Assembly (NCBI RefSeq): GCF_041381155.1
Contig: NC_091134.1
Location: 1,174,001 to 1,238,000 of the forward strand
DNA: 64,000 bases
Direction of reading: 5' to 3'
Source of the DNA: Argopecten irradians
Taxonomy: Eukaryota; Mollusca; Bivalvia; Pectinida; Pectinidae
The stretch's first letter is position 1. The number at the start of each line of letters is the position of its first letter. Positions 18,401-58,444 of this stretch are shown in pieces. The notes below the pieces were generated by a model. It did no database searches and had not been told where the DNA came from. It was given only the letters and a program-made list of their open reading frames with translations. The translations under genes and the position numbers were made by a program.

Positions 18401-21400
18401 GCAACTAACATTATGAAAGTTCTTGGTCATCTGTTCAGTGAAATATTTATTTGTGATTTCTATATGTAAGAGTACTAATTTCATGGATAATTTTTTACCT
18501 TATGTTGTCATTATTGATTTTGTTTGTACCAAAGACGATGCTGGACATTCGTTCCATTGCCAGTACCATGACGATGAGCGTGGATACCATATCAACCTCA
18601 GGTCAACAAGATGTCAAAGTGGAACTCTTCAGGGAAATCAAAGAGTTCATTAGACGGGAAAAGATGGTCCGAGCATTTGATGTAGGTGGATAACACACTC
18701 GTATATATAGTTACTAAATATGACTCATAAGTTTGTCAGACGGGAAAAGATGGTCCGAGCATTTGATTTTGTTGGACAACTCATATTTAGCTACTAAATA
18801 TGACTCATAAGTTTGTTAGACGGGAAAAGATAGTTTTAACATTTGACGAAGGTGGATAACTTGTATGTATATACATGTATATATAGATTTTAGGTACATA
18901 TTGATATTAGAAAACTGCCATTTCATTGAATACATATTACATATATACATAATTTTATGCAAAGAAAAATAATTCTCGAATTTAGTATTAGTGTTCCAAG
19001 AAACCTTAACTTCATCACTTGAGTCTTGTTACATAAGCAGCCCCCAAGAGAGCCAAAATTATATAAATGTTGTAATTTGTAGTTTAGTTTGCTGAAGTAC
19101 AGGATGTGAGGTATGAAAGTGGTGTGTAAAGTGCAGGAACCTATATATATCATATGTTATAATTTGTTAGAGTAGCGATTAAACCCCTTTAATCTAAATT
19201 CAGTTTTTGTTGTGTATAAATACATAATTTTATGCAAAGAAAAATAATTCTCAAATTCTATTTCAGGGTATGATATATCTGATGTTCCTGACGACCTGTT
19301 TGTCAGTGTTTACCAATTATTGGTACGCCGTAGCCTGGACGGGGGTTTTCTTAGCTTTCACTGTGATTTTCCGTCCGTACTACAACAGACATGGAGGCTT
19401 CACAGGAAATTACACACAGTGGTAAGTTATATACTTTATAATATACTGTTTTAAAACATAAAAGAGATAACAAATATCAGTATATTTTAATGAAAACGAA
19501 AGCAGTTGTAAGTTATATATACTGTACAATGTACTGTTTACGAAACAAACAAAAAGGATTAAAACTTATCAATACCGGTATTATTGAATGAAATTGAAGC
19601 ATATCATATGTTATATCTAAAGAAAAACAAGAAAATGAAATGGAGATCAGAAAAAGAAGGAGATTCCTGTACTTGTACAATGATTGTTATGTTTTAGGCG
19701 ATTTCTGTACTTGTACAATGATTGTCATGTTTTAGGCGATTCCTGTACTTGTACAATGATTGTCATGTTCTAGGTGATTCCTGTACTTGTACAATGATTG
19801 TCATTTTTTAGGAGATTCCTGTACTTGAACAATGATTGTCATGTTTTAGGAGATTCCTGTACTTGTACAATGATTGTTATGTTTTAGGTGATTCCTGTAC
19901 TTGTACAATGATTGTCATGTTTTAGGCGATTCCTGTACTTGTACAATGATTGTCATGTTTTAGGAGATTCCTGTACTTGTACAATGATTGTCATGTTTTA
20001 GGAGATTCCTGTACTTGTACAATGATTGTTATGTTTTAGGAGATTCCTGTACTTGTACAATGATTGTTATGTTTTAGGAGATTCCTGTACTTGTACAATG
20101 ATTGTTATGTTTTAGGCGATTCCTGTACTTGTACAATGATTGTCATGTTTTAGGCGATTCCTGTACTTGTACAATGATTGTCATGTTTTAGGAGATTCCT
20201 GTACTTGTACAATGATTGTCATGTTTTAGGCGATTCCTGTACTTGTACAATGATTGTCATGTTTTAGGAGATTCCTGTACTTGTACAATGATTGTCATGT
20301 TTTAGGAGATTCCTGTACTTGTACAATGATTGTTATGTTTTAGGTGATTCCTGTACTTGTACAATGATTGTTATGTTTTAGGAGATTCCTGTACTTGTAC
20401 AATGATTGTCATGTTTTAGGTGATTCCTGTACTTGTACAATGATTGTCATGTTTTAGGAGATTCCTGTACTTGTACAATGATTGTCATGTTTTAGGTGAT
20501 TCCTGTACTTGTACAATGATTGTCATGTTTTAGGAGATTCCTGTACTTGTACAATGATTGTTATGTTTTAGGCGATTCCTGTACTTGTACAATGATTGTT
20601 ATGTTTTAGGTGATTCCTGTACTTGTACAATGATTGTTATGTTTTAGGCGATTCCTGTACTTGTACAATGATTGTTATGTTTTAGGCGATTCCTGTACTT
20701 GTACAATGATTGTCATGTTTTAGGAGATTCCTGTACTTGTACAATGATTGTCATGTTTTAGGAGATTCCTGTACTTGTACAATGATTGTTATGTTTTAGG
20801 CGATTCCTGTACTTGTACAATGATTGTTATGTTTTAGGAGATTCCTGTACTTGTACAATGATTGTATGTTTTAGGCGATTCCTGTACTTGTACAATGATT
20901 GTCATGTTTTAGGAGATTCCTGTACTTGTACAATGATTGTTATGTTTTAGGAGATTCCTGTACTTGTACAATGATTGTTATGTTTTAGGAGATTCCTGTA
21001 CTTGTACAATGATTGTCATGTTTTAGGTACTTGACAATGATTGTCATTCCTGTACTTGTACAATGATTGTTATGTATATTTTTTGTGGTTGGTGCTGTCG
21101 GTTAGGAGATGTGATTTCCTGTACGGTTGCGGTACAATGATTGTACATGTTGTACGCAGGGGTAGCAAAAGTTTGGAATTATACCCTTATTCTCATTATT
21201 GTTTGTAGGCTAAGCTTCATATTTATACAGGACCATGGCTGTAAAGACTTGGTATTTGTTGATGTGTGTTGTAATATTTTACAGGACCACGGCTGTAAAG
21301 ACTTGGTATTTGTTGATGTGTGTTGTGATATTTTACAGGACCACGGCTGTACAGACTGGGTATTTGTTGATGAGTGTTGTAATATTTATACAGGATCACG

Positions 21401-24400
21401 GCTGTAAAGACTGGGTATTTGTTGATGAATGTTGTAATATTTATACAAGACCACGGCTGTAAAGACTGGGTATTTGTTGATGTGTGTTGTAATATTTTAC
21501 AGGACCACGGCTGTAAAGACTGGGTATTTGTTGATGTGTGTTGTAATATTTTACAGGACCACGGCTGTAAAGACTGGGTATTTGTTGATGTGTGTTGTAA
21601 TATTTTACAGGACCACGGCTGTAAAGACTGGGTATTTGTTGATGTGTGTTGTAATATTTTACAGGGCCACGGCTGTAAAGACTGGGTATTTGTTGATGTT
21701 TGTTGTAATATTTTAAAGGGCCACGGCTGTAAAGACTGGGTATTTGTTGATGTGTGTTGTCATATTTTACAGGACCACGGCTGTAAAGACTGGGTATTTG
21801 TTGATGAGTGTTCCCACAAGAACGTGTTCACTGCGGTGTTTTATTCTGCTCATTCTGTCATCCTTCTGGCCTCAGCCATACTCATCGGTCTTCTCTTCGT
21901 CAACTTCAGGCTTGAGGTATGTATCAACAGACATTGCTAAAGTTAAAAATAATGGCCATTTTTGCCAGGTTCGGCACCTGTATAATTTTTCAGAGATTCA
22001 GAGATGACATTTCTACCGACTTCCGGTACTCAATAATTAGTCCAGACCGGATTTTAAAATAGGCGGTCCGAGTCAAATTTTGCTGGACATGTCCGTCGGA
22101 CCGGCAAATTTTGCGATGTCTATATCAATGTCTTATCATAAACTAGACCACAGTCAACCAATAGTCTTAAGAAAAACTTGTTATCAAAAGTTCTTATTAT
22201 AAAATTTCTTTATATTTACAGGTATTGAAAGAAAAAAAAATCACCCGTTATTTTGGATACTTGCTACAGATTTTATCCTCACACATATCAAGTTGAAAAA
22301 TATCAGAGGGCAGTACATAATATGTTTCAAAGCTTTGACATTGATCAGTGTTTAAAGTTGAAATATAATTTAATAATGTGCTAAAATGATTTTTTTTATA
22401 TATATACATATTGCATAAATTACAGAAAGGGGACTATATTGAGAAGTTTCTGGTACAGGAAAGAGACATTGAACTCGTGATGAAATCTGCTCGCAGTTCT
22501 AAGTAAGTGACCTAAACATACAAGTATTGTATGATAAAGGTGATAATGTCATATTCTCTGCAATTCAGATTTTGATGGTTTAAACATGAAATGATTAGAT
22601 AATGTGACCATTTTCTCCCTCAGGATTAAGGAGAAGAGAACAGCTGCACATGAGCTGGCATGTATGGCAGCATCAGGGGACGATAACAAATTCCGTATCG
22701 TAGCCGAGGGAGGGTAAGTATATATCACAACAGCTTTAAAATAGTGAAGGGAGTGTAAGTGTTTGTCTCAACAGCTTTAAAATAGCGAAGGGAGTGTAAG
22801 TGTTTTTCACAACAGCTTTAAAATAGTGGAGGGAGGGTAAGTGTTTGTCTCAACAGCTTTAAAATAGCGAAGGGAGTGTAAGTGTTTTTCACAACAGCTT
22901 TAAAATAGTGGAGGGAGGGTAAGTGTTTGTCTCAACAGGTTTAAAACAGTGAAGGGAGGGTAAGTGTTTGTCTCAACAGCTTTAAAATAGTGGAGGGAGG
23001 TTAAGTGTTTGTCTCAACAGCTTGAAAATAGTGAAGGGAGGGTAAGTGTTTGTCACAACAGTTTTGAAATAGTGGAGGGAGGTTAGGTGTTTGTCTCAAC
23101 AGCTTTAAAATAGTGGAGGGAGGGTTAGTGTTTGTCTCAACAGGTTTGCAATAATGAGTGAGGATAAGCGTCTACTGCAACAACATTGTTATACATGTAC
23201 CATGAAAATGAGGACAACAATTTTAGAAAGGGGATAAAAAATGTGGCACACTTAAACTTAACCAATAGGAATTTCAGAAAAGATGGCGTGACGTCACAGA
23301 AAGTTTACATCCGGGTCCTCAAAGGTACAAACACAGTATGGCGACTGATAAAAACAATAACAGATACGTACATCCCTGCTTCATAATCGATACACTTTGT
23401 CAAAAGTTTACGCTTTCATACTTGCAAATTCTGATTTTGAAATGGTTTCTTATTGTTTCACAGGTTACGGATGTTAACATTTTTATATTTTCATTTGTTT
23501 ATTGCTAAATTTTAGTGTCGAAGCCACCTAGGTCAACCAATTCTTAAGAAAAACTTGTTATCAAAAGTTCTTATTATATAATTTCTTTATATTTATTGAA
23601 AAAAATCACCATTATTAAATTTGGATACTTGCTACAGATTTTTCCTTCACACATATCAAGTTGAAAAATATCAGAGGGCAGTACATAATATGTTTCAAAG
23701 CTTTGACATTGATCAGTATTTAAAGTTGAAATATAATGTAATGATATGCTAAAATGAATTTATATATTGCATAAATTACAGAAAGGGGACTATATTGAGA
23801 AGTTTCTGGTACAGGAAAGAGACATTGAACTCGTGATGAAATCTGCTCGCAGTTCCAAGTAAGTGACCAAAACATACAAGTATTGTATGATAAAAGTGAT
23901 AATGTCATAATCTCTGCAATTTAGATTTTGGTTGTTTAAATATGAAATGATTAGATAATGTGACCATTTTTCCCCACAGGATTAAGGAGAAGAGAACAGC
24001 TGCACATGAGCTGGCATGTATGGCAGCATCAGGGGACGACAACAAATTCCGCATCGTAGCCGAGGGAGGGTAAGTATTTGTCACAACAGCTTTAAATAGT
24101 GAAGGGAGGGTAAGTGTTTGTTTCAACAGCTTTAAAATAGTGGAGGGAGGGTAAGTGTTTGTCACAACAGTTTTAAAATAATGGAGGGAGGGTAAGTGTT
24201 TGTCTCAACAGTTTTAAAATAATGGAGGGAGGGTAAGTGTTTGTCTCAACAGCTTTAAAATAGTGGAGGGAGGTTAAGTGTTTGTCTCAACAGCTTTAAA
24301 ATAGTGAAGGGAGGGTAAGTGTTTGTCTCAACAGCGTTAAAATAGTGGAGGGAGGTTAAGGGTTTGTCTCAACAGGTTTAAAACAGTGAAGGGAGGGTAA

Positions 24401-27400
24401 GTGTTTGTCTCAACAGCGTTAAAATAGTGGAAGGAGGTTAAGTGTTTGTCTCAACAGGTTTGCAATAATGAGTGAGGATAAGCGTCTAGTGCAACAATAT
24501 TGTTATACATGTACCATGAAAACGAGGACATGTACAACATTATAGAAAGGGGATAAAAAATGTGGCACACTTAAACTTAACCAATTTCAACTCTATTAGT
24601 CTACTAGCTTTGAACTTTTTTTGCAAAGGGCTTTAGGGGTAAAATTACTTCAGTTGTATGTAGGAGGAAGGGGGTGGGGAGGAGGAGGAAGGAGGTGGGG
24701 AGGAGAAGGAAGGGAGTGGGGAGGAGGAGGAAGGGGGTGGGGAGGAGTGGTAAACTTATTGAAAGATCAACTGATATTTTACTGTTTGGATTTGACCTTA
24801 GATATTTGTTTTCAGGTTGGATGTGTTGATGGCCATGGCCCACTGTGATGATGACGTGACTCAGGAACACGCTGTGGAGGCCATCGCCGAACTCCTCACC
24901 ATACAGTCCATTCAGGTACACATGCACTTACGGTATATACAGTAAAACATGTTTATAATGAACACACAATGTACTACTTTTCATTGACTTACTTTAGTAA
25001 ATATGTCTGTATATTAAATCTATTTATTTCTCTCTAATCATGTGGCTACTGGATTGGATTTACAGGATAACTTCGTGGACATGAACGGTGTCCAGACCTT
25101 GACCTCTCTGCTCCACTCGGAGAATTCTCGTATCATGCAGGAAGCTGCTGATAGTCTCTATACCATCGTCTCTGAGTCAGAGGAAAACAAAAGTGCTGTT
25201 GTCGCTGATCATGGGTAATTATATCAATAAATAGACAATGTAATCATTGTAAAATCATATACCGTATTCGACCCAATAAGCGCCCATGTGCCTATAAGCG
25301 CCCCTCCCCCTTTTTGAGGCCTCAATTTCAATTGCCCATGCATAAATAAGGACCAAAATTACATAAAACGGTATAGATTTGCAAGAATTTCGACTTATTA
25401 GCACCTTTTCATTTTTACCAATTTTTAAGCACCCATGGCACTTATTGGGTCGAATACAGTATATGTTCTCTCTAACACCAAGTTTACAAACTTTTTAGGA
25501 TATTTAATACAATTACCAGGCATTGTCCAATATTTAAAATGTCCTTAAAATCATGTTAACACTTATTATCAATTGAACTGTTATTGGTTTTCTTTACAGT
25601 TTTTAAGATGTATTTTTTAAACATATTTGTTTTCTTTCATTTTCCACCATATGACCTTGATCTTAATAGATTGGATGACCTTGCCCACGCAGCCTACCAG
25701 GGTACTATCTATTGCCAGAGGACAGTAGCCAGTATCTACTTAGAGCTAGCCTTCACCCCTGAGATACGAGCTCAGATGGCTGCTAGGAATATTCCAGGTA
25801 GGGGGGAGATCAGCTTCATCATCTCAATATGACAGACATTGTGATTAAATGCTCTTGATTTCGTTCATGAAAAGTGAAAATGATTTTACGTGATAAAGCA
25901 CCTGTGCATGAGGTTAAAAAATGTACATGCAAAATTTTCAATACAAATATTGATATACAGCTGTAGATTTCCCTGTATAATTGTTATTTTGATTACTAAC
26001 ATGATGATGTTTACTGCACTTTGATTGAATTTGGTGTAGCAATGGAAATTGTTTTTATGTTACCAGCCCAGGCCTTGGTTCACCTGTGTGGAAGTACAGA
26101 CCCAGACACTCAACGCTACGCATTACAGACTTTCGAACTGCTTGCTATAGAGAGCTCAGAGATGATATGTGCCCAGGTAATATATCACAACTACTTATAT
26201 CTGATATCCTTAATATTTGTAAACGTAATGATAATTATACCAATGAGTACAGACTTTATAAATACTGTAATTTGTTTTTCTGTTTTCAGGAAGAGTTGAT
26301 GGAAGTGTTGCTAGAACTCCCCAACAAAACTCTGGATGAGAAACTGTACCTGCTGGCGGGCAAGATCCTCCTTTATTACGCTGAGAACAGGATGGTAGGT
26401 GTAACAATGTTATTTCTATTTACCAATGTAACAAGCATTGGCTGTTTATGAGGTCTGAGACAAGGATAAGTTTTTAGGTGGATTTCTGAGTCTGCTTCCA
26501 TAAACAATGCATGCATTCTTCTGTAACCCTGAGGAATCCTTTGTTTCACTATAATGTTTAGGACTGATGTCGGACCTACCACATGTAGAGAGCTAGCCCA
26601 GTGTAATATGATTTTTCCTTTATTTGCTATTTTTTAGACCTGTGAGATGCTGGTGAACCACCCTAGTATCAGAGATACCCTCGGAATGTTCGCTCGCTCC
26701 CACGACACCATTCTACAGAAGGTCGTCACCAAGGTCATCTTTTGTATGCTCGACACCAAGGAAATGAAGTGAGGATTTGTACTTTATCAAGTTTTCATTT
26801 ATTAACCCAAAATCCGATTGATATTTATGTCCTACAACCAAGTATTATGACTGATGATAAAATACTTCTTTCTAAAATGGAATAAAGGAAAGTTTTCACG
26901 TGTGATTGGTACCATATTGCAAATCATTTGATATTCTGTTGTAGGAGACAGCTCCTGGGTCTTTAGATTGACTTCTGTTGATGAAATGATAAACAATAGG
27001 ACTGCAAACAAAATGTATAATAATAGCTATTAGACAAATATTGAACAATAAATAATACAAATTATTGACTCCTTTTCTAAACAGACTGAAGGCTAAGGAT
27101 CAGCAGCTACACAGAGTGCTGGAATACATCCGTGACAATTCATTGGACCGTGAGGCCTGGGATATGGCTGATCAAGGTAAAAATCCAAAACCTTTCGCAT
27201 TTCACATTGAGTTATCTCCTGTTGGAGATACATATTGATGGTTATGTGTGTATGTAATGGTATTGTTTGTACATACAGAAATATTATCACCATTGATATT
27301 CAAGAACAGCTATCCCTTCACTATTTTCCATCATATATCAAGATCCTAACTTGATTTCGTCTTTTCTACTTCTAGACTAGATCCTCCATCCATCTGATTT

Positions 27401-27863
27401 CTAGCTCTTCCATTGTTGGAAGCTTCCATATACATGTAGTTTAGAATGTAACCATTTGTTTAATTACTCCTTTGTTTGTTATCTCAGGTCATTTATTTTT
27501 GTAACACTGTTTTGGTGTTTAGCATAGACTGTTTTTGTTCTAATTATTATGATATACTGTAGTTTTAAGTTTCTAATGTTGTACCCATCTGTAATAGGTA
27601 TACAAGCCATGGACTCGGATGTTTAGCACAGACTGTTTCTGTTCTAACTATTATGGTATAGTTTTAAGTCTCTAATGTTGTACCCATCTGTAATAGGTAT
27701 ACAAGCCATGGACTCGGATGAAGACAACCTCTCTACTCTACCAATGTTGAGTACACTGGAGAAGCTGAACAAAATGGGCGGGGAGAAACAGAGATTTGGA
27801 TCAAAGACGTCACTGGGATCGGACGAAAAACCAGGGGCAAGCAACTCCAGCAACTCGGATTAG
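15437..27863 (+). CDS. Ubiquitin-like + membrane segments + armadillo-like repeat protein
   Basis: Exons: 15437-15469, 16870-17082, 18535-18681, 19267-19421, (21394 or 21773)-21916, 22426-22502, 22624-22713 (or duplicates 23782-23858, 23980-24069), 24816-24915, 25066-25214, 25670-25797, 26067-26176, 26290-26394, 26638-26768, 27085-27176, 27697-27863. Residues 1-82 (MIIYVESKAFP joined to YKTFLTVVKPSDKIARIRAH, ending NAVIKLLPVAKR) look like a ubiquitin-like beta-grasp. A helical linker (ELFREIKEFIRREKMVRAFD) precedes hydrophobic segments (IYLMFLTTCLSVFTNYWYA; VAWTGVFLAFTVIF; later SVILLASAILIGLLFVNF). The rest is alpha-helical with armadillo/HEAT-like pairs (EGGLDVLMAMAHCDDDVTQE; NGVQTLTSLLHSENSRIMQE; AQALVHLCGSTDPDTQRYAL). 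The tail is Ser-rich and ends SNSSNSD. All phases close except between 19421 and 21773: the frame requires the exon to start at 21394, inside a 54-bp array (total 739 aa), or an unseen small exon. I do not know the family; a scaffold role at a membrane is inference. Confidence 0.8.
16667..16848. mobile_element. MITE, TTACAGAGTTA family, copy 1
   Basis: Near-perfect inverted arms: CAGAGTTAACTCCCTTGCAG at the left and TACAGATAACTCTGTAATAT at the right. The same family is at 50334-50522 and 51774-51954. It ends about 20 bp before exon 2 of the host gene, so it supplies sequence close to that exon's branch-point region. Confidence 0.85.
17213..17569 (+). mobile_element. TTAA-flanked MITE, 357 bp, copy 1
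   Basis: TTAA at 17209-17212 and 17570-17573 flanks inverted termini AGATGCGCCGCCGCTGAC and GTCGGCGGTGGAGCATCT. TTAA target duplications are typical of piggyBac-like transposons, so this is probably a non-autonomous derivative. Related full copies: 17956-18310 (opposite orientation) and 32626-32983. Confidence 0.88.
17956..18310 (-). mobile_element. TTAA-flanked MITE, copy 2, inverted
   Basis: TTAA at 17952-17955 and 18311-18314 flanks the same element in the opposite orientation (AGATGCTCCACCGCCGACAG at the left). With copy 1 it forms an inverted pair inside one intron. Confidence 0.9.
18651..18860 (+). repeat. Tandem triplication spanning the exon 3 donor (about 85 bp)
   Basis: The end of exon 3 (AGACGGGAAAAGATGGTCCG, then AGCATTTGAT and donor GTAGGT at 18682) with the following intron start is repeated twice downstream (from about 18736 and 18820). 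Copies 2 and 3 have decayed donors. Confidence 0.9.
19655..21060 (+). repeat. 39-bp minisatellite with acceptor-like TTTTAG, about 36 copies
   Basis: The unit is GATTCCTGTACTTGTACAAT then GATTGTYATGTTTTAGGNN. Copies are highly uniform and differ mainly at two positions (C/T, and A/C/T after TTTTAGG). Each unit ends in a weak acceptor motif. It lies between the exon ending at 19421 and the 54-bp array. The 3' edge (21010-21140) is degenerate. Confidence 0.93.
21231..21830 (+). repeat. 54-bp array of acceptor plus exon start, about 10-11 copies
   Basis: The unit is GACCACGGCTGTAAAGACTG, GGTATTTGTTGATGTGTGTT, GTAATATTTTACAG. The boundary TTTTACAG/GACCACGG is an acceptor and the first 40 bases match the start of the exon that runs to 21916. 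54 nt is 18 codons and two frames are stop-free: DHGCKDWVFVDVCCNILQ and TTAVKTGYLLMCVVIFYR. Units at 21339 and 21394 are 55 nt, so the two frames are exchanged there. Confidence 0.93.
22704..23160 (+). repeat. 41-bp donor-containing array, copy 1, about 11 units
   Basis: Begins with the end of exon 22624-22713 (GAGGGAGG) and its donor GTAAGT. The unit is GTAAGTGTTTGTCTCAACAG, CTTTAAAATAGTGGAGGGAG, G. Every unit therefore has a strong donor and, 20 nt later, an acceptor-like CAACAG. Confidence 0.93.
24060..24480 (+). repeat. 41-bp donor-containing array, copy 2, about 10 units
   Basis: The same unit as 22704-23160, attached to the duplicated exon 23980-24069. Unit number and variant order differ from copy 1, so the two arrays have changed since the duplication. 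Confidence 0.92.
24655..24755 (+). repeat. G-rich polypurine repeat, potential quadruplex
   Basis: About four copies of a 24-bp purine unit (AGGAGGAAGGGGGTGGGG). It lies about 60 bp before the acceptor of the exon at 24816 and leaves almost no pyrimidine tract in that interval. The G-runs are on the transcribed RNA. Confidence 0.85.
25259..25462. mobile_element. MITE with TA target site, 204 bp
   Basis: Termini CCGTATTCGACCCAATAAG and CTTATTGGGTCGAATACAG are inverted and flanked by TA on both sides, as in Tc1/mariner-type elements. It is in the intron after exon 25066-25214. Confidence 0.82.
27519..27720 (+). repeat. Tandem duplication of the last-exon acceptor, about 100 bp
   Basis: The last 75-80 bases of the final intron and the first 24 bases of the final exon occur twice (acceptors TAATAG/GTATACAAGCC at 27597 and 27696). 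The second is the one contiguous with the long C-terminal exon. Confidence 0.92.
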
Positions 27864-28949
27864 AAATGTGAAACAGGGAATTCAATGAACAATATCCCAT
27901 AAGAAACATATACAAACTGTCAAGAATTTGTCAGGTCAAAAATTTCCATGAGTTCACTAAAGAATATAAGTGACTGTTAAGAAATTTGAATTTGCTTTTG
28001 AGAAAAGATAAATTGTATTATTTCATGAAACTGTTTCCTGCTGCTGCTGTGGCTTTGACTAAAACTATTAAAGGTGTGTATTTACTATTTTCTACACCAT
28101 GTGCCACTCGAAAATACGTGGGGTGAAATTGTATTATCGAAAGTATTGGTAGGTCATTCTGACTTATATTCCAACCTTTATCAAAGAAAAGTTTGGAAAG
28201 GCTCAATAACACATCCAATTAAAAAAAAAGAATTATAATAATTATCTGATTGATTTTCATAACATATTAATTTCTCTTTTCTTAATTATTATAGCATTTT
28301 AAATGACAATTACAAACTTGCATTTTGTTGATAAAAAAAGAAGTTCAAATCACACAATATTTTAGTTATGTAGACATTGTAATTTGTAATTAGCCTACAT
28401 TAAAACCTTATAATTTATGACTCAGTATGGCATTTTTATGGTAAACTGTTTTGAGTTTTTACAAGAGTTAAACCACTTAGAGAGTAAACCACGGCTGTGA
28501 ATAAGTTACCTTGTAGGACATTTTGTGTTTTAAGATTTTGTATATTTTATGGATATATTTTGGCATCAATTAAGCCACAACTTTTTATAGAGTTTGACTA
28601 TTTAGGTTTTACTTATCCGTCCATATGATTATATACCTTTTACATAGAATTTCCTGTTTGTGATATATATCTTTCGTCCGTTTCATATATGTATAGCAAT
28701 AACATTTTGTAATGAAGACACATTCTATGACTATCATATTCAAATTAATATTCAAGTGTGGTTAGGAAAATTCAATGATTTCATTTGTAATTCTAGTGTA
28801 TGGTATTTCTTGTTACACATACTTTAACAAAGCAGGCATTTGTTAATGTTACAATCATTGTAACTAGAAAATGGGTCCAGTTTCATCAACATTCATTAAA
28901 TTAAAATTCTGCAAAGAAAAGAAATACAAAATTAAAGAAAAAATCTTAA
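27864..28949. other. 3' UTR and flank of the ubiquitin-like/armadillo gene
   Basis: AT-rich sequence after the TAG at 27861-27863, with no further exon. The polyadenylation site cannot be fixed; the first AATAAA-like signals lie downstream, in or beyond the MITE at 28950. Confidence 0.5.
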
Positions 28950-29279
28950 AGTGAACAGTCGGGCAAGGATGGCTAAAGTCGGTAAAAATGGTGTGAATGT
29001 ATAATTTCTTATGAAATGGAAAAATAAAATCTCTCGTCAAAATCTGTCTGCGTACGAAGAAATTAATTTAAAGTATGGAAATTCTAAAACGTCCTCCCGG
29101 CTCACTATGTCCGTGGTTACATTTCCACGCAGCCTCGCTTTCAATGCTTTCAACTTTTCTTTACTTTAATGGTCAGAACTGGGAAACTAAGCAGAACTTG
29201 GCCGTCGTATTAATATGCGAGAACTTTTGGAAGGCTAATGAACGCATTTAGACTGGTTTTCTTTGCCCGACTATTCACT
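28950..29279. mobile_element. TTAA-flanked MITE, second family, 330 bp
   Basis: TTAA at 28946-28949 and 29280-29283 encloses inverted termini AGTGAACAGTCGGGCAA and TTGCCCGACTATTCACT. Its termini differ from those of the 357-bp family. It is probably another piggyBac-like non-autonomous element. Confidence 0.85.
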
Positions 29280-29769
29280 TTAAGTGAAGGAGCTTTCCTT
29301 AAAGCCTGTATTAATGATTTCCTATGGAGAATTTTAAGTTAAATAACGGATTCCTTAACTTTAAGGAATGAAGCTGGACCCTGACTGATCTAAAGTTCAT
29401 TCTTATCAACAAACTTTAGCCAAGGACTAGAAATACTAAAAACTTCAATGTTTTGTTAAATTTCATATGTTTTCTCCATTAAAATCAAACATTTGTTGAA
29501 GCATTCCATTGACTGGACTTGCATTCACAGTAGGATCTTGTAGCGATTATTATCTGTTGAAGTAACTGATACTTTGATGTAAGAACTAACGTATGAAGTA
29601 TATTTTTATGACTGTTTGTGGTCTGGATCACAATGATTTATACTGTTAATATATTTTATTGTAGAGGCTGGATTTCCTCACTTATTAAAGACTCTATTAT
29701 AACACAAGTTCTGTGTTGTGATTATTAGGAAATAGCAGACTAAATTATCTCCCCTTAGATTATGTTCAC

Positions 29770-30175: not shown

Positions 30176-30465
30176 TCACATTTTGTTGAAGAACACTTAC
30201 ACCTGCTTTCTTCGCAATATGAATTCTACAAAAGTGGATACAAGGATGTGCAAATTACAAGGGTCCTGTATATAGGTCACCATTGCTCACCTGCTGATGT
30301 GTTAGAGAACAATTACCTTTTGGTTATATAGTCCTCTTTATAGAACTTAAGCTGACTTGACACTTTCTATTTACTTGAGTCATGATCATTGAAAAAATAT
30401 TTGAGTCCTTCATTGAAACATGTCTAAGGTAAAGTATCTCTTCTCTGAACTCTTAATTGGGCTCC

Positions 30466-47700: not shown

Positions 47701-50700
47701 ATAAAAAACGGATCACAGTGAATTTTTTAGACAAATAATGTTCTGAATGTATTGTAGGCGAGGGCCAGTAAGGTACAGATTCCAGGGCCTCTATGAGCTG
47801 GACAGTCTAGCTGTGGTCAATGTTCGGGATGCTGGACCAGTCAAGAATGCTTTCAAAATCCTCATGTTCCCAGACTCCAAGATGTACCAAGCAGACAGTG
47901 CTAAAGCTAAGGTAAAAAATATCAGTTTTATTTTCAGGTGCCTCATAACCACAAAGTAAAATATTGTATAAAACTATTTTTCTGCATCCCTTTATATGAA
48001 AAATAATGCAAAAAATATTGACAAATTCTGCTGTATTGTGAACAATTTGAATTCATATCATTGAACTATCAGGTACAATGTTTATGCTATACCCATATGA
48101 TAGTCAAGCCAGATTCTAGTTAAGTACCAAGTACTCACCTGGCCCTAATAGAAAAAAAATATGACTTTGGCTTGATCCAGTCATACAAACCAGTTTGTCT
48201 ATTTTCAAATATTACTGTGGTTTGATATATTTGTCTATTTTCAAATATTACTGTGGTTTGATATATTTATAACTTCAAATATTTTTCCTTTTACAGAGAC
48301 AGTGGCTGGACATTTTAGAAGAAACAAAAAAGAGGAAGGCTAGTAGGGACAAACAGAAGAAAGAGGCCGCGATCTTCTTAGCCGAGCAACAGGCCGTTAC
48401 CTTGGCAACACCAACAGAGGATAGTAATCGTGAGTATAATGGTCAGATAGTCTTTTATAATTCTGTCATAGAATAGGAAAAAAATATTGTCTATATAAGC
48501 AGTCTGTGACGTTAATTTTTTTCGCTGCAAGTCATTTGGACTAGTAAACCACAAAAATTTACAAGTCAGACTATTTAATTACTAGTCAAAGTTAAATCTA
48601 AATTAATCTATAGCCGTTTTCCTTCAGCACTTTAAAGTCAGCAATCAGTTTACATTTTTATTTACCAAAATTACAGTCGGATGCATCCGGACTAAAATAA
48701 TTGCATGAAGAATGCACTCAAAATGTGTTCAAAATGCAATTGACCACCGCTCTTGTAAATGTAGTATTTAACGATTTTAATAGGGAGCTACTAGTCCAAT
48801 CGGATAAGTTCATTACAGTTGGCATTAGACTGGCTGTAAAATTTCTAGTCGTGGGCATCGGACTAGTGCTTAAATTCGCAGACTGTATAAGGGGTGTGAG
48901 TACCTAGTGATAAGGTGCATGACATCAATAACCTTTCACCTCTGAATGATGGATTTAGTTACTGTACATAACTAGGTCGATTAATCAAAACACCACTAAT
49001 AACTAGGTCAACTGTACATAACTAAGTCAGCTGTTTGTGTACTCCTACCTTCCTTTACCACCAATGTATGACCCATAGTCTACATAAAACACAATCTCTC
49101 CAGTATTCACAAAATCTTATCTATTTTCACAGCCTTTGGAGAAGAGGATGACAGTGAGGCTCTTGCTGCCATAGAAACAGATTTTCTTAACTCTGATTGG
49201 CTACAAGAACTTCCTGAAGATCTAGACATGTGCATTGCACAAAGAGACTTTGAAGGAGCTGTTGATTTAGTTGAAAGAGGTATGTATATTCACAAAAAGT
49301 TTGATAATTTATATCATTATAATATTATAATATTTAAAGTTTAATGTGTTTCAAGTTTTAGTGATGTGTATTATGAACAGTATTACAACTGCATATCATT
49401 TGTACTGCATATCATTTGTACTTTACAGTTAATGAATATTTAAAAGACTGTCCAAAAGTTCCTGCCGTGAAAGAATTCAGGTTAGTCATTCAAGCTGTAT
49501 TGGTGTTAAGATGTACATGTATTATGTATTATTAATTGTAACTATTTTGATTGATTGGGATGTTGTCACGGAATTACAGCTATCTTCTCTCAGTTATCAT
49601 CTTTGTGGGGAAAAAGAGAAAAGATGAAAATGTAAAATTAAGAAAAAAATGCTCAATAATCTGCATGTAAAATTTAGATACAATGTAATATCTTATTATA
49701 GAAAGCTAACTGCTTACCTTTGTCTGATATTGGGGCCGCGGTGGCTGAGTGGTTAAGATGTCTCGACATACTATATACCACAAGTACTCAACCTCTGGGT
49801 TGCGAGTTCGAATCCCAGGTGGGGCAGTTGCCAGGTACTGACCACTGGTCAATGGTTTTTCTCTGGGTAGTCCAGCTTTCCTTCACCAACAAACCTAGCA
49901 CTTCCTTACATGACTCTGGCTGTTAATAGGACATTAAACAAATATAACCAATAAACCTGATATTGTAAAATGATAATTATCTCCCCTTCTTATCATACTA
50001 TAGTAACTAGCTTCTTTGACATAATTTCAGAGCAAGGATAGATCATCGTGTAAAACAGTTGACTGAGGGACTAATGGGAGAGTTACAGGTATCCCCAGAG
50101 AGATCTCTACGTGGCGGGCCTCGGGCAGCAAGACGAGCAGTGATGCAGCTTATCAGACTCGGCAAGTCTGCACAGGTATAGCGTAGTACAGATGTACTTG
50201 ATAGAAGTTCAATAAGGGGTCAATTTTGATCCAGGTTCCACTTGATATAGTGCTCATTTAGTAATGATTAACTATAAAAAAAAATGTCCATTTAAAAATT
50301 TATTATGCCTTAGTCAGGAGCTGAGGGATTACCTATTCTATCTTTGCATATTACAGAGTTAGCTCCCTTGCGAGTCGGTATCGATTGTTGTGTCATTATT
50401 TTGTGAGCGCAATTCATTTCGTTTTCTCAGAAACGTATGACGTTACGCTCGCAAACACATGATGTCACAATCAATACCTACCCGCAAGTGCAGATAACTC
50501 TGTAATATGCAATTTTGGAATATGTCTTATATACACACTTAGCTTATGATGACCCTTATCCTGATGAAATTTGAGGTGGAGGGTAACTATAGTATCACCC
50601 ATGGCTGTCACATGCTATCTTGTATTGCCATATTCATCCCATCCAGAATTGTGAAAGGCATTAAACATCTCAGCAGATACTCAGAGATAGAGAGAATGCA

Positions 50701-53700
50701 GGAGGATAAGATGTAAAATACAACGGAAATACAATACACTGCTTAGAGACATTTTATACCATTCCTGTTTGGTTTTTACAGGCCTGTGACTTGTTCCTGA
50801 AGAACAGAAGTTCCATCATTAAATATAATATTCGTCAGCTGAAGTTTGAAGGGGCAACAACTCTGTATATCCGTCGACTGTGTGATGTGTTCATTCCTTG
50901 TCTGTCAGAGACTGGCAAGGAGTTTATGAAGGCTTTTCAGGAACATTACGGCTGTATGTCAGGTGAGACTCAAAAACCAGAACAGGAACAAGTGCAATAC
51001 TTCCGTAACAATATTGAGAACAAAATAACTTCATCTTTCTGCTATTATTAATCAGGATATGCAATTTATCTTGTTCTCTTTGATGAGATTTTATAATACA
51101 GTGGAACTCGGTTAATACGAAGTCGAAGGGACCGAGATAAAACTTCGAGTTACCCGAGCTTTTGAATTAAGCAAGTTCTCGTGTCTACTGACGATCTCTC
51201 TACTTGGTACTATATAGACTAGTTCCATGTCGTAAAACAATGTGAACAAGAGAGATGTTAAAATCGCCGATGGTAGTTGCAAAATTATGACAATAAAACC
51301 GTTCTACGGCAGATTTATGAAAAAGAAATCGGCATTTTCGGCAATCTCATTGTCCAAAAAATCTCATTTCAAGTTATAAGAAGCTTTTATGTATGTTTTT
51401 TGTCATTCGGACCTAAAATGTACTTCGTATTATCCGAGTTCTTTGAGTTTTCCAAATTTGAATTATCCGAGTTCTTTAAACAAAGGTAAAGAGGGAATTC
51501 GGCCGGGACCAGCAAAGAACTTGGTATTAAGCCGGGTTTTCGAATTATCCAAATTTGTATCAACCAAGTTCCACTGTAGTAAATTTATAGAAAAAAAAAA
51601 TGAAAATAATAAAGTGAAAAAATGGTAAAGAATTGACTATTTCTTTAGGTTTACCATTCAAGATATATTAACAGTAGGTATTATTCACATGCCACTACTT
51701 CATGTGTTTCTCCTCCACATCGATGGCCTGATAACAACAAAAAATATCATCCTTAACATGACATATATCAGAATATTCGGTCCGTGTATATTACAGAGTT
51801 AGCTCCCTTGCGGGTAGGTATCATTTGTTACGTCATTATTTTATTAGCGCAATTCACGTCATTTTCTCCGAAAAGTATGACGTTACGCTCGAAAACACAT
51901 GACGTATACCTACCCGCAAGGGCAGATAACTCTGTAATATGCAAATACGGAATAACTGCCTATACACTGTATCTTTTCGGAAAACATTTAGAAAAGTTAT
52001 GTTTACCTGGACTGATGACACAGTTTTCATTATCTTTGTTACAGCCTTTGTTGTCTGGGCCAAGAAAGAACTTCAGATGTTTGTATCTTTTCAGAACAAC
52101 AGATCTAAAATGTTAAGTTTACCTGGACTGATGACACAGTTTTCATTATCTTTGTTACAGCCTTTGTTGTCTGGGCCAAGAAAGAACTTCAGATGTTTGT
52201 ATCTTTTCAGAACAACAGATCTAAAATGTTAAGTGTACCTGGACTGATGACACAGTTTTCATTATCTTTGTTACAGCCTTTGTTGTCTGGGCCAAGAAAG
52301 AACTTCAGATGTTTGTATCTTTTCTGAACAACAGATCTAAAATGTTAAGTTTACCTGGACTGATGACACAGTTTTCATTATCTTTGTTACAGCCTTTGTT
52401 GTCTGGGCCAAGAAAGAACTTCAGATGTTTGTATCTTTTCAGAACAACAGATCTAAAATATTATGTTTACCTGGACTGATGACAGAGTTTTCATTATCTT
52501 TGTTACAGCCTTTGTTGTCTGGGCCAAGAAAGAACATCAGATGTTTGTATCTTTTCTGAACAACAGATCTAAAATGTTAAGTTTACCTGGGCTGATGACA
52601 CAGTTTTCATTATCTTTGTTACAGCCTTTGTTGTCTGGGCCAAGAAAGAACTTCAGATGTTTGTATCTTTTCAGAACAACAGATTTAAAATGTTAAGTTT
52701 ACCTGGGCTGATGACAGAGTTTTCATTTTGTTTGTTACAGCCTTTGTTGTCTGGGCCAAGAAAGAACTTCAGATGTTTGTATCTTTTCAGAACAACAGAT
52801 TTAAAATATTATGTTTACCTGGGCTGATGACAGAGTTTTCATTATCTTTGTTACAGCCTTTGTTGTCTGGGCCAAGAAAGAACTTCAGATGTTTGTATCT
52901 TTTCTGAAAAACAGATTTAAAATGTTAAGTTTACCTGGGCTGATGACAGAGTTTTCATTTTGTTTGTTACAGCCTTTGTTGTCTGGGCAAAGAAAGAATT
53001 TCAGATGTTTGTATCTTTTCAGAACAACAGATTTGAAATATTATGTTTACCTGGGCTGATGACAGAGTTTTCATTTTGTTTGTTACAGCCTTTGTTGTCT
53101 GGGCCAAGAAAGAACTTCAGATGTTTGTGTCAACTGTAAATAGACAGGTGTTTGGTGGAAAGTCATCATTGTCCGTCATCGCAGAATGTCTTCACAACGC
53201 ACGAATCCAGTGTGAGGAGGTAGGTAACAGTACTTACATAGCCTACTGTATAACTGTAGCATTTCAGCATTTCAGCTGTATCAAGCTAATTTTTGATGTA
53301 AATCTTTACTACGTTTGTGGTAATTTGAGCATTAATGTGTGAAATGATAAACTTTCATCACTTTATTTTCAAATTTAATGGTAATTGCAGCACTTTTATT
53401 TTTCACTCTAAGATATTGAAAAATAACAAATGGGACAAAAAAGTAAGCACAGGGACCCTCCATTTTTTCTTACTGATTTAGAAAGAACAATCCTATTCCT
53501 ATTGATATCCAAAATATTGTCAAAAGTTCAATACCAGAACTTTGTCTGTAAAAGGTTAAAATTGACAGAAAATTGTTCATTTTGTACCTCAAAATTAAGG
53601 GGTAGAGGAGGCATTTGTTGTTATTCTGAGAAAAATCTGAGTCTAATTAATCATTACTGGTGTATTTTTAAAGAAGACTTCTGGAAAATAAATACTACAA

Positions 53701-56700
53701 ACATCCATACATATCAAACACCCCATTAGGAAATTATGGCTTTAAATCTCTCATGTATATGGTCAAAACTGCAAAATTCCCATAAAATCCAATATTTTGT
53801 CAACTAGGTATCCTTGAGTGACAATAGCTCAAAAATGAGCACATGGAAATATGTTTTTTCTTCAATTTTCTTTTATGGCATGAACTCCTATTTCTGAAAA
53901 CCTATATGAGAAAAAAAGTTTAATACAAAAAAAAAATGATAGTCTTTTGTCCATTGTCGTGCGTCTGTAAACATTTCTTGGTGAACACGATAACTTGAGT
54001 AAATATAAACCGAACTTAATGAAACTTTGTATGTAGACTAACATTAGAAAGATCTCTGATGAGTTAAAAATCAGCTTGATTCGGCGGTAATTAACAGAGT
54101 TATTGCCCTTTGCACTAATAATTATTATTAGACCTTGTGAACGCGATAACTTGAGTAAATATAAACCAAATCTTTGTATGTAGACTAACATTGGAAAGAT
54201 CTCAACAAGTTTGAAAATGAACTTGATTTGACGCTAATCTACGGAGTAATCGCCCTTTGCACTAATAATTATTATTTGACCTTGTGAACGCAATAACTTA
54301 AATATGAACCGAGCTTGAGCAAAAATGAACAAAAGAATCTGTTGGCTAGTTAATGACATAAAAAATTGTATGGAATATCAGAAAAAAATTGTATCGAATA
54401 TCAGGTGACCGTTAACGCCCATGGGCCTCTTGTTACATTTAATGGTAACTTGTCAGAGGAATACATCCTTAACAGCAGAGTTATAACTATTTTGGGAAAT
54501 AGTCTTAGTAGAAAATTGAGGAATGTTTTGTATTCTTATCAGTTCCCTTCAGATTTGATATTATTAATTCTTTGATAAAAAACATACATGTTGAAGGTAT
54601 AAGCTACACATGAGGGCATCTCTGTGTGTGCCAAGTCAATATGTAATAAAACTGGAAGCGATCGAGTCTTTTTTAACCAGTATCATTGTATTTAACACCT
54701 TGTAACAGGCACAACTTAACAGATTCTCTTACTTTAGAAAATTACTTTGGATAATGATTGCAGTATGTCATTGTCAACTGATTGATGTATATTCTGTTTC
54801 AGTTAAGCCAGATTGGTTTGGAGGTGAACTTCATATTTGATTTCTTGATTGCTTCAGACCTAGAAAGAGTGATCAGAGAAAATAAGGATCAGATCATTGA
54901 TGGAGTCAAATACAGGGCTCAGGTATAATAATAAATACAGGGCTCAGGTATAATGATAAATACAGAGCTCAGGTATAGTGACAAATACAGGGCTCAGGTA
55001 TAATGACAAATACAGGGCTCAGGTATAATGACAAATACAGGACTCAGGTATAATGACAAATACAGGGCTCAGGTATAATGACAAATACAGGGCTCAGGTA
55101 TAATGACAAATACAGGGCTCAGGTATAATGACAAATACAGGACTCAGGTATAATGACAAATACAGGGCTCAGGTATAATGACAAATACAGGACTCAGGTA
55201 TAATGACAAATACAGGACTCAGGTATAATGACAAATACAGGGCTCAGGTATACAAATACAGGGCTCAGGTATAATGACAAATACAGGGCTCAGGTATACA
55301 AATACAGGGCTCAGGTATAATGACAAATACAGGGCTCAGGTATAATGACAAATACAGGGCTCAGGTATAATGACAATTACAGGGCTCAGGTATAATGACA
55401 AATACAGGGCTCAGGTATAATGACAAATACAGGGCTCAGGTATAATGACAATTACAGGGCTCAGGTATAATGACAAATACAGGGCTCAGGTATAATGACA
55501 AATACAGGGCTCAGGTATAATGACAAATACAGGACTCAGGTATAATGACAAATACAGGACTCAGGTATAATGACAAATACAGGGCTCAGGTATACAAATA
55601 CAGGGCTCAGGTATAATGACAAATACAGGGCTCAGGTATAATGACAAATACAGGGCTCAGGTATAATGACAAATACAGGGCTCAGGTATAATGACAAATA
55701 CAGGGCTCAGGTATGCAAATCCTGGGCTCAGGTATACAAATACAGGGCTCAGGTATAATGACAAATACAGGGCTCAGGTATAATGACAAATACAGGGATC
55801 AGGTGCAATGACAAATACAGGGCTCAGGTATAATGACAAATACAGGGCTCAGGTATAATGACAAATACAGGGCTCAGGTATAATGACAAATACAGGGCTC
55901 AGGTATAATGACAAATACAGGGCTCAGGTATAATGACAAATACAGGGCTCAGGTATAATGACAAATACAGGGATCAGGTATAATGACAAATACAGGGCTC
56001 AGGTATAATAATAAATACAGGGCTCAGGTATAATGATAAATACAGAGCTCAGGTATAGTGACAAATACAGGGCTCAGGTATAATGACAAATACAGGGCTC
56101 AGGTATAATGACAAATACAGGGATCAGGTATAATGACAAATACAGGGCTCAGGTATAATGACAAATACAGGACTCAGGTATAATGACAAATACAGGGCTC
56201 AGGTATACAAATACAGGGCTCAGGTATAATGACAAATACAGGGCTCAGGTATAATGACAAATACAGGGCTCAGGTATAATGACAAATACAGGGCTCAGGT
56301 ATAATGACAAATACAGGGCTCAGGTATAATGACAAATACAGGGCTCAGGTATAATGACAAATACAGGGCTCAGGTATGCAAATCCTGGGCTCAGGTATAC
56401 AAATACAGGGCTCAGGTATAATGACAAATACAGGGATCAGGTATAATGACAAATACAGGGATCAGGTGCAATGACAAATACAGGGCTCAGGTATAATGAC
56501 AAATACAGGGCTCGGGTATAATGACAAATACAGGGCTCAGGTATAATGATAAATACAGGGCTCAGGTATAATGACAATTACAGGGCTAAGGTATAATGAC
56601 AAATACAGGACTCAGGTATAATGACAAATACAGGGCTCAGGTATAATGACAAATACAGGGCTCAGGTATAATGACAAATACATTGCTCAGGTATACAAAT

Positions 56701-58444
56701 ACAGGGCTCAGGTATAATGACAAATACAGGGCTCAGGTATAATGACAAATACAGGGCTCAGGTATAATGACAAATTCAGGGCTTAGGTGTAATGATAAAT
56801 ACAGGGCTCAGGTTTAATGACAATTACAGGGCTCAGGTATAATGACAAATACAGGGCTCAGGTATAATGACAAATACAGGGCTCAGGTATAGCTACCAAT
56901 ACAGGACTCGGGTGTAACGATAAATACAGGGCTCAGGTGTAATGACAGTAGGCATATCTGCTGATGAAAAGGTTGTTTTTTTTTAAATATAATCTTAGTT
57001 TTAAATAAACTAAATCTAACAAATGGTCTGGGTTTGCTGTGGCCAAGCGGTTAAAGTGTTGGTGCATATTACCACTGTCTCTCTTTTCTGCGTTGTAGGT
57101 TCAAAACCAGTGACATTCCCTTAATAAAGGATGGGACATGAAATAAATCCATACCCATGAAACTATTGATATGTCTTTTTCATCATTATTTTTGAAAATA
57201 GATTTGTTGACAAGACTTCAACATAAAGTACATTGTATGTACTGGTAATAAAATTAAAAGAAAATATGTGTATGTTTAAATTTCAATCAACTTTGTCTGC
57301 ATTCTTTTTTAATTAAATTTTACCCAAGCCTGAAAAAACAAACTGAATCATGCATTAATTTTGATGATAGATTGGTTGATGGCCCATCAAATGGATCAAT
57401 ATTATTTTATCATTATGTACATATCTTTTTTCTCTAGTACTTAACTATCAGACATCGATCAAAACTTTATATCAGTGATAATGTATGTATTTTTAGGATG
57501 ACAAATGGCGTCCAATGAATCACCTCAGTCATACTGACTGCCTCAAGTTTGTTGAGGAAATGTCGACTGGTGGCCTTGATCTGAAAAGCTACATCTATGG
57601 TAAGGCCACTTTAAGTTTTAATGTCCATTTTACTTTATTATTAATGAAATGAAATATCTATATCTTCAAGAGCCTTCCTTTAAAAACTAACATTTGAAGT
57701 TTCAACAAACAATTCCCTGAGAAATCAAAAGTCTATCATAGGAAGAGAGAACACTTCACATAAAAATTTGAAGGTAAATTTATGTTTGTTTGTAAGTATG
57801 TACACATGACTTTTGTTAACATTTTAAATCAACTGTGGTCTAATTGGTCCTGATATCAATGTTATGATTTAACTTATATTTTAGATGCCTGTTTCATTAA
57901 TCTGACAATGAACACTGCCAACTTTTCCAAAAGCTGTCTGTCCTTCGCCAATGCTGTTTTGTTAGTCCACACGCCAGAGATTGATTATCTCATCTCCGAA
58001 GCTATTTCTGAAATATTCCGTGCAGAAGTCACACACATCGAGGACTCGATCAAAAATAAAGACTTCTACAGGGAGGTAAGATAACATAGGATAATATAAA
58101 AGATAGGGTGAGAAATCATACTGTAAAATTATACTAAAAAACAATGAAATACCGGGTAATATGTCATAAAGATGAATGGTACTAGAGGACACAAGTTTGC
58201 AAAAATTTCTGTTTTTGTTTTAGAATAAATTTTAAAAGAAAATTTACAGGTATTATAGTATATGTTTATTATCTTTCAGCACAAATTTATCCTGAAGAAC
58301 GCTGCATTTGTACTGGAAGTGTTAATGGGAAAGATTGAATCTGCTTATAAGGACAAAGGTGTTGTGTTCCCGAAACAGTTACTGGACATTAACGGAGAGT
58401 ACAGACGACTTAAGTCCGTGGTCAAATCTTTGGGGGCAAGCTGA
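38733..58444 (+). CDS. EXOC8: Exocyst complex component 8 (Exo84), 16 exons, 692 aa
   Basis: Subunit of the exocyst, which tethers secretory vesicles to the plasma membrane. Exons: 38733-38793, 39173-39328, 39673-39768, 40632-40732, 46937-47079, 47758-47911, 48297-48429, 49133-49279, 49429-49480, 50031-50175, 50782-50962, 53089-53219, 54803-54922, 57497-57599, 57885-58075, 58280-58444. They sum to 2,079 nt with every phase closing, ending TGA. Residues 20-110 are the N-terminal coiled-coil region (KKNVYKNYFQFIETAKEIS; LEGEMYQLSHTLTEQKS). About 138-260 form the PH domain that in other species binds Ral and phosphoinositides (YRFQGLYELDSLAVVNVRDA). About 318-520 are the Exo84 helical C-terminal domain (SDWLQELPEDLDMCIAQRDF; SPERSLRGGPRAARRAV; LKFEGATTLYIRRLCDVF; AFVVWAKKELQMFV). 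Length is near human (725 aa), which as far as I know is encoded without introns. Introns 4, 11 and 13 hold arrays of duplicated splice junctions. Confidence 0.97.
39580..39640 (+). mobile_element. SINE fragment around the B-box
   Basis: CGGATTCGAGCCCAGGTGGC resembles the B-box and following part of the tRNA-derived SINEs here; no A-box half is recognisable. It is in EXOC8 intron 2. Confidence 0.5.
40241..40380. mobile_element. Fragment of the 357-bp TTAA MITE
   Basis: About 140 bp matching one end of the family (AATGGTAGTAATGGTGTA, TTTGTCTGCTCCTG) and ending at TTAA (40381-40384). It is diverged and lacks the other half. In EXOC8 intron 3. Confidence 0.8.
41321..41440. repeat. Hairpin with AT-microsatellite loop at the edge of the 73-bp array
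   Basis: CCTGGCACTAAGATTTTAAC at the left and GTTAAAATTTTTGTGCCAGG at the right enclose about 60 bp of (TA)n. The complementarity weakly continues outward (GGATATTACACAGG against CCTGTGGGATATTA), into the first unit of the array at 41437. Confidence 0.85.
41437..46954 (+). repeat. 73-75-bp acceptor-containing array, about 75 copies
   Basis: The unit is AGAGTGTAACAGAGGTCCCT, GTGGGATATTAGATATGTGA, TATAGGGATATGATGTACTG, TTTTCTATATAAC, with a TA-dinucleotide length variant. TTTTCTATATAACAG is the acceptor of exon 5 and AGTGTAACAGAGGTCCCTG is the first 19 bases of that exon, so every unit is an intron end plus exon start. The last unit (46937) continues into the real exon. It fills nearly all of EXOC8 intron 4 (6.2 kb). 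A few ragged units (43540-43640, 45700-45790, 46690-46740) may be assembly noise. Confidence 0.97.
48194..48265 (+). repeat. 36-bp tandem duplication just before an acceptor
   Basis: TTTGTCTATTTTCAAATATT plus ACTGTGGTTTGATATA occurs at 48194-48229 and 48230-48265, 31 bp before the exon at 48297. It lies inside the region where the branch point is expected. Confidence 0.93.
48493..48889. mobile_element. MITE-like element with TATAAGCAGTCTG termini
   Basis: TATAAGCAGTCTG at the left and CAGACTGTATA at the right are imperfect inverted repeats. Internal GGACTAGT words recur in both orientations. Architecture resembles 29770-30175. In an EXOC8 intron. Confidence 0.5.
49391..49422 (+). repeat. 16-bp tandem duplication next to an acceptor
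   Basis: GCATATCATTTGTACT is repeated directly at 49391-49406 and 49407-49422, six bases before the exon at 49429. Confidence 0.9.
49732..49950 (+). mobile_element. tRNA-derived SINE, best-preserved copy
   Basis: GGTGGCTGAGTGGTTAAGAT (A-box region) at 49741, GCGAGTTCGAATCCCAGGTG (B-box region) near 49802, then a body of about 130 bp ending in GTTAATAGGACATTAAAC. The head resembles a Leu- or Ser-type tRNA with a long variable arm. It lies in the EXOC8 intron before exon 50031-50175. Confidence 0.88.
50334..50522. mobile_element. MITE, TTACAGAGTTA family, copy 2
   Basis: Inverted arms CATATTACAGAGTTAGCTCC and CAGATAACTCTGTAATATGC, with GATACC/GGTATC inner parts. In the EXOC8 intron before exon 50782-50962. 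Confidence 0.87.
51099..51576. mobile_element. Pogo/Tigger-like MITE, 478 bp
   Basis: Termini CAGTGGAACTCGGTTAATAC and CAACCAAGTTCCACTG are inverted and flanked by TA at 51097-51098 and 51577-51578. The CAGTGGAAC start and TA target match non-autonomous Tigger (pogo) elements. No transposase frame is present. Confidence 0.8.
51774..51954. mobile_element. MITE, TTACAGAGTTA family, copy 3
   Basis: Arms TATTACAGAGTTAGCTCCCT and GGCAGATAACTCTGTAATAT. It stops about 14 bp before the start of the 116-bp splice-junction array. Confidence 0.87.
51968..53110 (+). repeat. 116-bp acceptor-containing array, about 10 copies
   Basis: Each unit has an intron end (TTTACCTGG...ATCTTTGTTACAG) and then the first 40 bases of EXOC8 exon 12 (CCTTTGTTGTCTGGGCCAAG, AAAGAACTTCAGATGTTTGT), followed by ATCTTTTCAGAACAACAGAT and a short linker. 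Only the last copy (acceptor at 53088) runs on into the real exon. A degenerate partial unit begins at about 51968. Two sub-types alternate in the 3' half (ATCTTTG/TTTTGTTTG; GACACAG/GACAGAG). Confidence 0.96.
53940..54440. mobile_element. Dispersed element with internal tandem units of about 145 bp
   Basis: GTGAACRCGATAACTTGAGT, TATGTAGACTAACATTRGAA and GCCCTTTGCACTAATAATTA recur in order at about 53980, 54137 and 54283. The right end GTTAACGCCCATGGGCCTCT resembles the end of a common bivalve repeat as I remember it. Class is uncertain; no coding capacity. Confidence 0.55.
54907..56945 (+). repeat. 25-bp donor-containing array, about 80 copies
   Basis: The unit is GACAAATACAGGGCTCAGGT plus ATAAT. 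AAATACAGGGCTCAG is the last 15 bases of EXOC8 exon 13 and GTATAA is its donor (54923), so each unit is an exon end plus donor. Variants (GACTCAG, GTATACAAATAC, GTATGCAAATCC) recur in the same order 1,080 bp and 662 bp apart, showing block duplications within the array. Confidence 0.97.
57027..57115 (+). mobile_element. tRNA-like SINE head, second type
   Basis: GCTGTGGCCAAGCGGTTAAA (A-box-like) and GTAGGTTCAAAACCAGTGAC (B-box-like) about 50 bp apart. The sequence differs from the other SINEs. There is no good acceptor stem, so a functional tRNA is unlikely. Confidence 0.55.

Follow-up and report, generated by a model that had tools for sequence, protein, structure and literature searches.

Minisatellites across splice junctions in two neighbouring Argopecten irradians genes resemble the mirages of lancelets

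Tandem repeats that span exon-intron boundaries have been described in lancelets, where they are called mirages. As set out in the parts of two reports on which we draw, mirages were defined in lancelet globin genes, with Adh3 and other loci cited alongside (PMC3087553), and PGBD5 and TnC were added to the mirage genes (PMC3902484). In those same portions, mirages occupy 5' and 3' boundaries without effect on regular splicing, their units measure 10-160 bp and are unrelated between genes, and their traits include edge copies that lie outside homogenisation, length polymorphism and somatic instability. Related structures appear in two other sources, again as far as the portions cited here describe them: variable internal tandem repeats at exon-intron boundaries in human segmental duplications, with 27 intron modifications after inspection (PMC2812944), and intron gain in potato RdRp through tandem duplication of an AG/GT proto-splice site (PMC4974935). 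Among the open-licence papers that our searches listed, none concerns mirages under that name outside lancelets; a 'mirage' in PMC9071541 was rejected, the word being a transposon name there.

We analysed a stretch of 64,000 nucleotides (hereafter the window) within contig C1 of the 846-Mb genome of the scallop Argopecten irradians. Two genes on its forward strand carry the arrays described below.

16840-27860, + strand: gene 1, encoding an uncharacterized armadillo-repeat protein (homologous-protein search; spliced alignment with P0122)
38733-58441, + strand: gene 2, EXOC8 (exocyst complex component 8), with 16 coding exons (Pfam, ortholog, spliced alignment)

The coordinates of gene 1 cover its coding part only, with the first codons unplaced; the homologous-protein search showed that its relatives have a ubiquitin-like N-terminus. 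EXOC8 was recognized by the Pfam domains PF25345 and PF16528 (PH_EXO84, Exo84_C) and by its Pecten maximus ortholog, P0001. Exon edges were placed with a purpose-written spliced aligner, with P0122 as the query for gene 1 and P0001 for EXOC8. Alignment of these orthologous proteins set the donors after 18681, 22713 and 54922 and the acceptors at 21773, 27697, 46937 and 53089 to the exact base; 24069 is the same donor as 22713, in a duplicated exon. Tandem Repeats Finder (TRF) was run on the window, and the features at these junctions are as follows.

18650-18856, + strand: 80-bp x 2.5 donor array, exon 18535-18681 (TRF, spliced alignment)
19658-21075, + strand: 38-bp x 36 acceptor array, its genuine copy broken in the assembly (TRF, exon comparison)
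21073-21102, + strand: exon remnant, coding CIFFVVGAVG (comparison with P0122)
21219-21812, + strand: 54-bp x 10.9 acceptor array, exon 21773-21916 (TRF, spliced alignment)
22232-24057, + strand: tandem duplication with an offset of ~1.36 kb, including exons 22426-22502 and 22624-22713 (sequence comparison)
22707-23168, + strand: 41-bp x 11.3 donor array, exon 22624-22713 (TRF, spliced alignment)
24062-24482, + strand: 41-bp x 10.3 donor array, a copy of the array at 22707-23168, on duplicated exon 23980-24069 (TRF)
27516-27720, + strand: ~99-bp x 2 acceptor array, exon 27697-27860 (TRF, spliced alignment)
41471-46955, + strand: 73-bp acceptor array, reported by TRF in two rows (71.8 and 3.2 copies), exon 46937-47079 (TRF, spliced alignment)
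51968-53128, + strand: 116-bp x 10 acceptor array, exon 53089-53219 (TRF, spliced alignment)
54907-56947, + strand: 25-bp x 83 donor array, exon 54803-54922 (TRF, spliced alignment)

An earlier reading made from the letters of the window alone (the sequence-only reading) had proposed eight junction-straddling arrays. TRF returned an array at every place that it named, all eight sit on real exon edges, and they reach 7-40 nt into the exon. Nevertheless, the arrays at 22713 and 24069 go back to one event, so that there are seven founding events and eight independent ones can be ruled out. The units do differ between arrays, which on the window alone excludes one spreading element, but the claim that they are all unrelated fails for the same pair: because the arrays at 22707-23168 and 24062-24482 have an identical 41-bp unit and lie in the ~1.36-kb tandem duplication, they are neither independent nor unrelated. 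The exon copies made by this duplication lie at 23782-23858 (1 difference) and 23980-24069 (2 differences). The duplicated exons measure 77 and 90 nt; a transcript with both pairs would be 167 nt longer and out of frame, so splicing presumably skips one of them.

The scallop arrays share with lancelet mirages, as the cited parts of those reports describe Adh3, BflGb6/BflGb9, TnC and PGBD5, the defining arrangement of tandem units across an exon-intron boundary, at donors or at acceptors; in the scallop both boundary types occur, at donors 18681, 22713 and 54922 and at acceptors 21773, 27697, 46937 and 53089. Scallop units differ from array to array, as lancelet units do from gene to gene, and in the scallop arrays and the described BflGb6 array alike AG or GT is kept in many, although not all, copies. 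At 53089 and 22713 the units at the edge diverge more than those inside the array; at 21773, 24069 and 54922 indels spoil the register. Copy number is higher in the scallop, at up to about 75-83, whereas the BflGb6 haplotypes of the cited portion have 6 and 3. Unlike the lancelet cases, several arrays occur in each of two neighbouring genes, and their frequency is here set against a null. Ordinary intronic minisatellites have similar unit sizes, copy numbers and edge-unit divergence (the last judged on the two in-register arrays), but the scallop unit takes in the splice junction and the adjoining exon bases. The human repeats of PMC2812944 are likewise minisatellites at exon-intron boundaries and, in the part cited, they differ in copy number between paralogs and come with alternative splicing and novel introns, whereas the scallop arrays lie in existing introns and keep the normal join where it is visible. 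The potato RdRp case, as given in the cited part of PMC4974935, is alike in its extra splice sites; in the scallop it is an existing intron that grows at its edge, with no new intron shown. The scallop arrays are thus mirages in a new phylum. The sequence-only reading was mistaken in knowing of no named system like this; what is new is the mollusc case and the frequency, by which a little-known lancelet phenomenon is extended.

Which copy is used can be seen best in gene 1. P0122 is a protein of 644 aa that agrees with the window exons at 429 of its C-terminal 430 residues; it comes from a 2240-base contig and is therefore transcript-like. In the gene 1 alignment it makes normal joins at 18681, at one of 22713 and 24069, and at 27697, and it uses the acceptor at 21773, whose upstream partner exon is missing from the assembly. 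The annotated A. irradians protein P0121 (756 aa) is different. In-frame, the 54-bp array is mostly open, and P0121 contains six extra 18-aa copies from it, placed before the genuine one, and has no normal join at 21773. Since neither the transcript-like P0122 nor the Pecten ortholog P0123 contains the extra 18-aa copies, the P0121 annotation is likely to be wrong. For EXOC8, the gene whose arrays contain the most decoys, no A. irradians protein was present among the matches listed (120 of 637), and the joins are read from the continuity of the protein with its Pecten ortholog.

The lost exon lies beside a further array of the same kind. The 38-bp unit consists of an intron tail ending in TTTTAG followed by GAGATTCCTGTACT, the head of the WRFLYC-coding exon; because it joins an intron tail to that exon's first 14 bases, this array too is a junction array. 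The exon itself, which encodes the P0122 segment WRFLYCIFFVVGAVGILGASLYFSVISWMSVA, is broken, CIFFVVGAVG being its sole remainder in the assembly. The residues that come next in P0122, ILGASLYFSVISWMSVA, are absent from the window, and a genome search for an intact copy of the WRFLYCIFFVVGAVGILGASLYFSVISWMSVA exon found none (11/11 candidates scored). The broken exon, between two arrays (21030-21219), represents either a deletion allele or a mis-assembly. Two small pseudo-exons that the aligner placed inside the 38-bp and 54-bp arrays were discarded, as the exon that they represent is not intact in the assembly.

Decoy strength was scored with a weight matrix built on dynein splice sites, 169 donors and 170 acceptors. 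At 54922 all 82 decoys keep GT, and 64 equal or outscore the genuine site. AG is kept by 68 of the 91 copies at 46937 (41 at least as strong), by all 9 decoys at 53089 (2 at least as strong) and by 9 of the 10 copies at 21773, none of which reaches the genuine strength. GT is present in 9 of 14 copies at 22713, 4 of them at least as strong, and in 6 of 13 at 24069, all 6 at least as strong. The single further copy at 27697 has AG and equals or exceeds the genuine site (1/1), and neither of the 2 further copies at 18681 has GT at the junction position. That the genuine site is always the one at the exon edge, as the sequence-only reading held, follows from geometry and is a trait of any tandem duplication across a junction.

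To obtain an expectation, each array was reduced to one unit, which could fall with equal chance anywhere in the collapsed intron or across either of its edges. Among the TRF rows of the window, 9/18 straddle a junction, against 3.0 expected over 30 intron segments, so it is not the case that arrays within genes always lie at junctions. One of the nine is a 28-bp row at the analyst-set edge of the broken exon; two arrays (38/28 bp; 73 bp) came out of TRF as a pair of rows each, and all four were counted. The exon copy 23782-23858 was not separated as an exon in this count. With the duplicate dropped, 8/17 straddle versus 2.8 expected (P 0.002), in a window that was chosen for the trait. Junction 20-mers recur within 600 bp at 7/57 window junctions, compared with 9/56 at positions 60 bp into the intron.

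As a control, A. irradians dynein heavy-chain loci were found by PF12774, and 5 of ~18 (270 kb) were taken regardless of their repeats. Exons were derived from paralog comparison and their edges from splice matrices and phase; 21 exon blocks inside arrays were removed before the final counts. In this sample 5/52 arrays straddle a junction versus 5.8 expected under uniform seeding (168 introns). The corresponding values are 5/40 versus 4.5 for phase-consistent introns (n=153) and 3/35 versus 4.9 for arrays with a TRF score of at least 100. A mild excess emerges when arrays straddling a junction or lying within 20 bp of one are counted (16/52 versus 10.1, P 0.024). A first count of 7/46 versus 5.4 (P 0.25) is superseded, two of the seven being false exons inside D1 41199-42830. 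Counted independently of TRF, junction 20-mers recur within 600 bp at 3/339 dynein junctions, as opposed to 21/326 intronic positions 60 bp from the edge (P 9e-5); the first figure is an undercount, because a decoy was picked at D4 22463 while the true acceptor is at ~22499, and inspection by eye gives five junction arrays. Junction sequence is otherwise spared relative to flanking intron. Introns shorter than 250 bp (15/155) are too few to test mirage avoidance of short introns.

Viewing of 17 cases by eye left five true dynein junction arrays; D1 59328, a candidate acceptor, was rejected as not the junction.

D1 21421: donor array, 54-bp x 5.6
D1 57163: donor array
D3 32199: donor array
D1 56981: acceptor array
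D4 ~22499: acceptor array, 43-bp x 12.9

Three of these are in D1, three have 2 copies only, and for two the exon is supported by a single paralog; no live decoy remains at D1 57163 or D1 56981. Together the five affect three of the five dynein genes, spread over two contigs other than C1, at about the rate of blind seeding: 5 straddling arrays in 168 dynein introns, versus 7 founding events in 28 window introns. The share of duplicated junctions is higher in the window (7/57) than in the dynein genes (3/339; P 8e-5), the window being an upper-tail case chosen for this trait, and that choice may explain its excess. The claim that arrays overlap junctions beyond chance therefore stands for the window and fails in the independent sample. 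Separately, D4 24184-29990 (L029:4184-9990, contig C13) holds, between dynein exons, a 32-bp x 182 array of 5.8 kb with 98% matches.

We consider it probable (about 0.75) that these mirage minisatellites arise, in array-rich introns, by the ordinary local duplication that also yields the genome's other intronic minisatellites, and persist since splicing would still pick the exon-adjacent copy. We start from what is seen directly, namely the units, the junctions, the decoys with intact GT or AG and a transcript-like gene 1 protein with normal joins. The founding duplication would be a slip between short direct repeats. The founding ends of the 73-bp array carry, by eye, a direct repeat formed by intronic AGGTTCCTG and exonic AGGTCCCTG; the ends of the 116-bp array share TGT and those of the 99-bp array TG, repeats of 2-3 bp that could be chance. 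By eye, short direct repeats thus mark 3/7 window arrays, the other four being without clear ends, and they would fit slippage or a microhomology-type duplication. Growth in copy number would keep the outermost copy joined to the exon, so that additional copies would become intronic decoys. Pairing of splice sites across the exon would then favour the exon-proximal copy. In human, the part of PMC9225289 cited here reports that among alternative sites in long introns the closest across the exon is preferred, and in short introns the closest across the intron; on this basis the exon-proximal genuine copy would win in long introns. Duplications in which the exon-proximal choice fails would be purged. 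Of the two options put forward by the sequence-only reading, retention of arrays only where duplicated sites are tolerated is the one that fits. No step needs a junction-targeted mechanism.

The other option was a junction-directed process. Such seeding of arrays on splice sites could be linked, for example, to R-loops, stalled spliceosomes or a nucleosome edge. The 8/17 arrays of the window and the weak excess of dynein arrays that straddle a junction or come within 20 bp of it (16/52) speak for it. However, the dynein genes lend it no support: arrays straddle junctions there at the uniform rate, junction sequence is duplicated less often than flanking intron, and in the window itself junctions (7/57) recur no more than intron positions (9/56). 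The comparison with a permutation-like null in the 168-intron sample thus goes against directed seeding, which we regard as unlikely. It is less likely still that the decoys are functional and that the arrays tune or diversify the splicing of both genes. In favour of this, many intact decoys match or exceed the genuine site in the dynein matrix (64/82 at 54922, 41/68 at 46937), P0121 contains the 18-aa copies, and the human boundary repeats in segmental duplications are reported, in the cited part of PMC2812944, with alternative splicing. Those 18-aa copies are, however, absent from P0122 and from Pecten P0123, most unit lengths (25, 38, 41, 73, 80, 116) are not multiples of three, and GT is lost in both further copies at 18681.

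Mis-assembly, of the arrays or of their placement at junctions, is the most improbable of these readings. The broken exon between the 38-bp and 54-bp arrays, not found intact and yet present in P0122, is what such an error could leave. Against this, three of the five dynein genes, on two further contigs, have junction arrays with other units, including 2-copy ones; array units carry exon bases in register, and the remaining exons of both genes are intact. Ordinary duplication with retention remains our preferred reading. A wider idea, about as doubtful as directed seeding, is that junction minisatellites are a recurring, lineage-independent mode of intron growth, in which lengthening shifts recognition to the exon and disarms the decoys, some neighbourhoods being true hot spots. 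If so, introns that disarm their own decoys by growing would let arrays of tens of near-identical splice sites accumulate.

The EXOC8 intron in which 64 of 82 decoy donors match or outscore the genuine one offers a natural test of how the splicing machinery ranks near-identical sites by position. Junction arrays can also mislead annotation, as in P0121, and assembly, as in the broken exon between two arrays. On the minus strand, 35509-36294 contains ORFs that resemble an isoprenylcysteine carboxyl methyltransferase gene. A genome search with window positions 18000-18600 indicated that 18000-18315 forms the start of an interspersed repeat; among the 40 of 4885 candidates that were scored, nearly all are ~90% identical over the first 315 bases.
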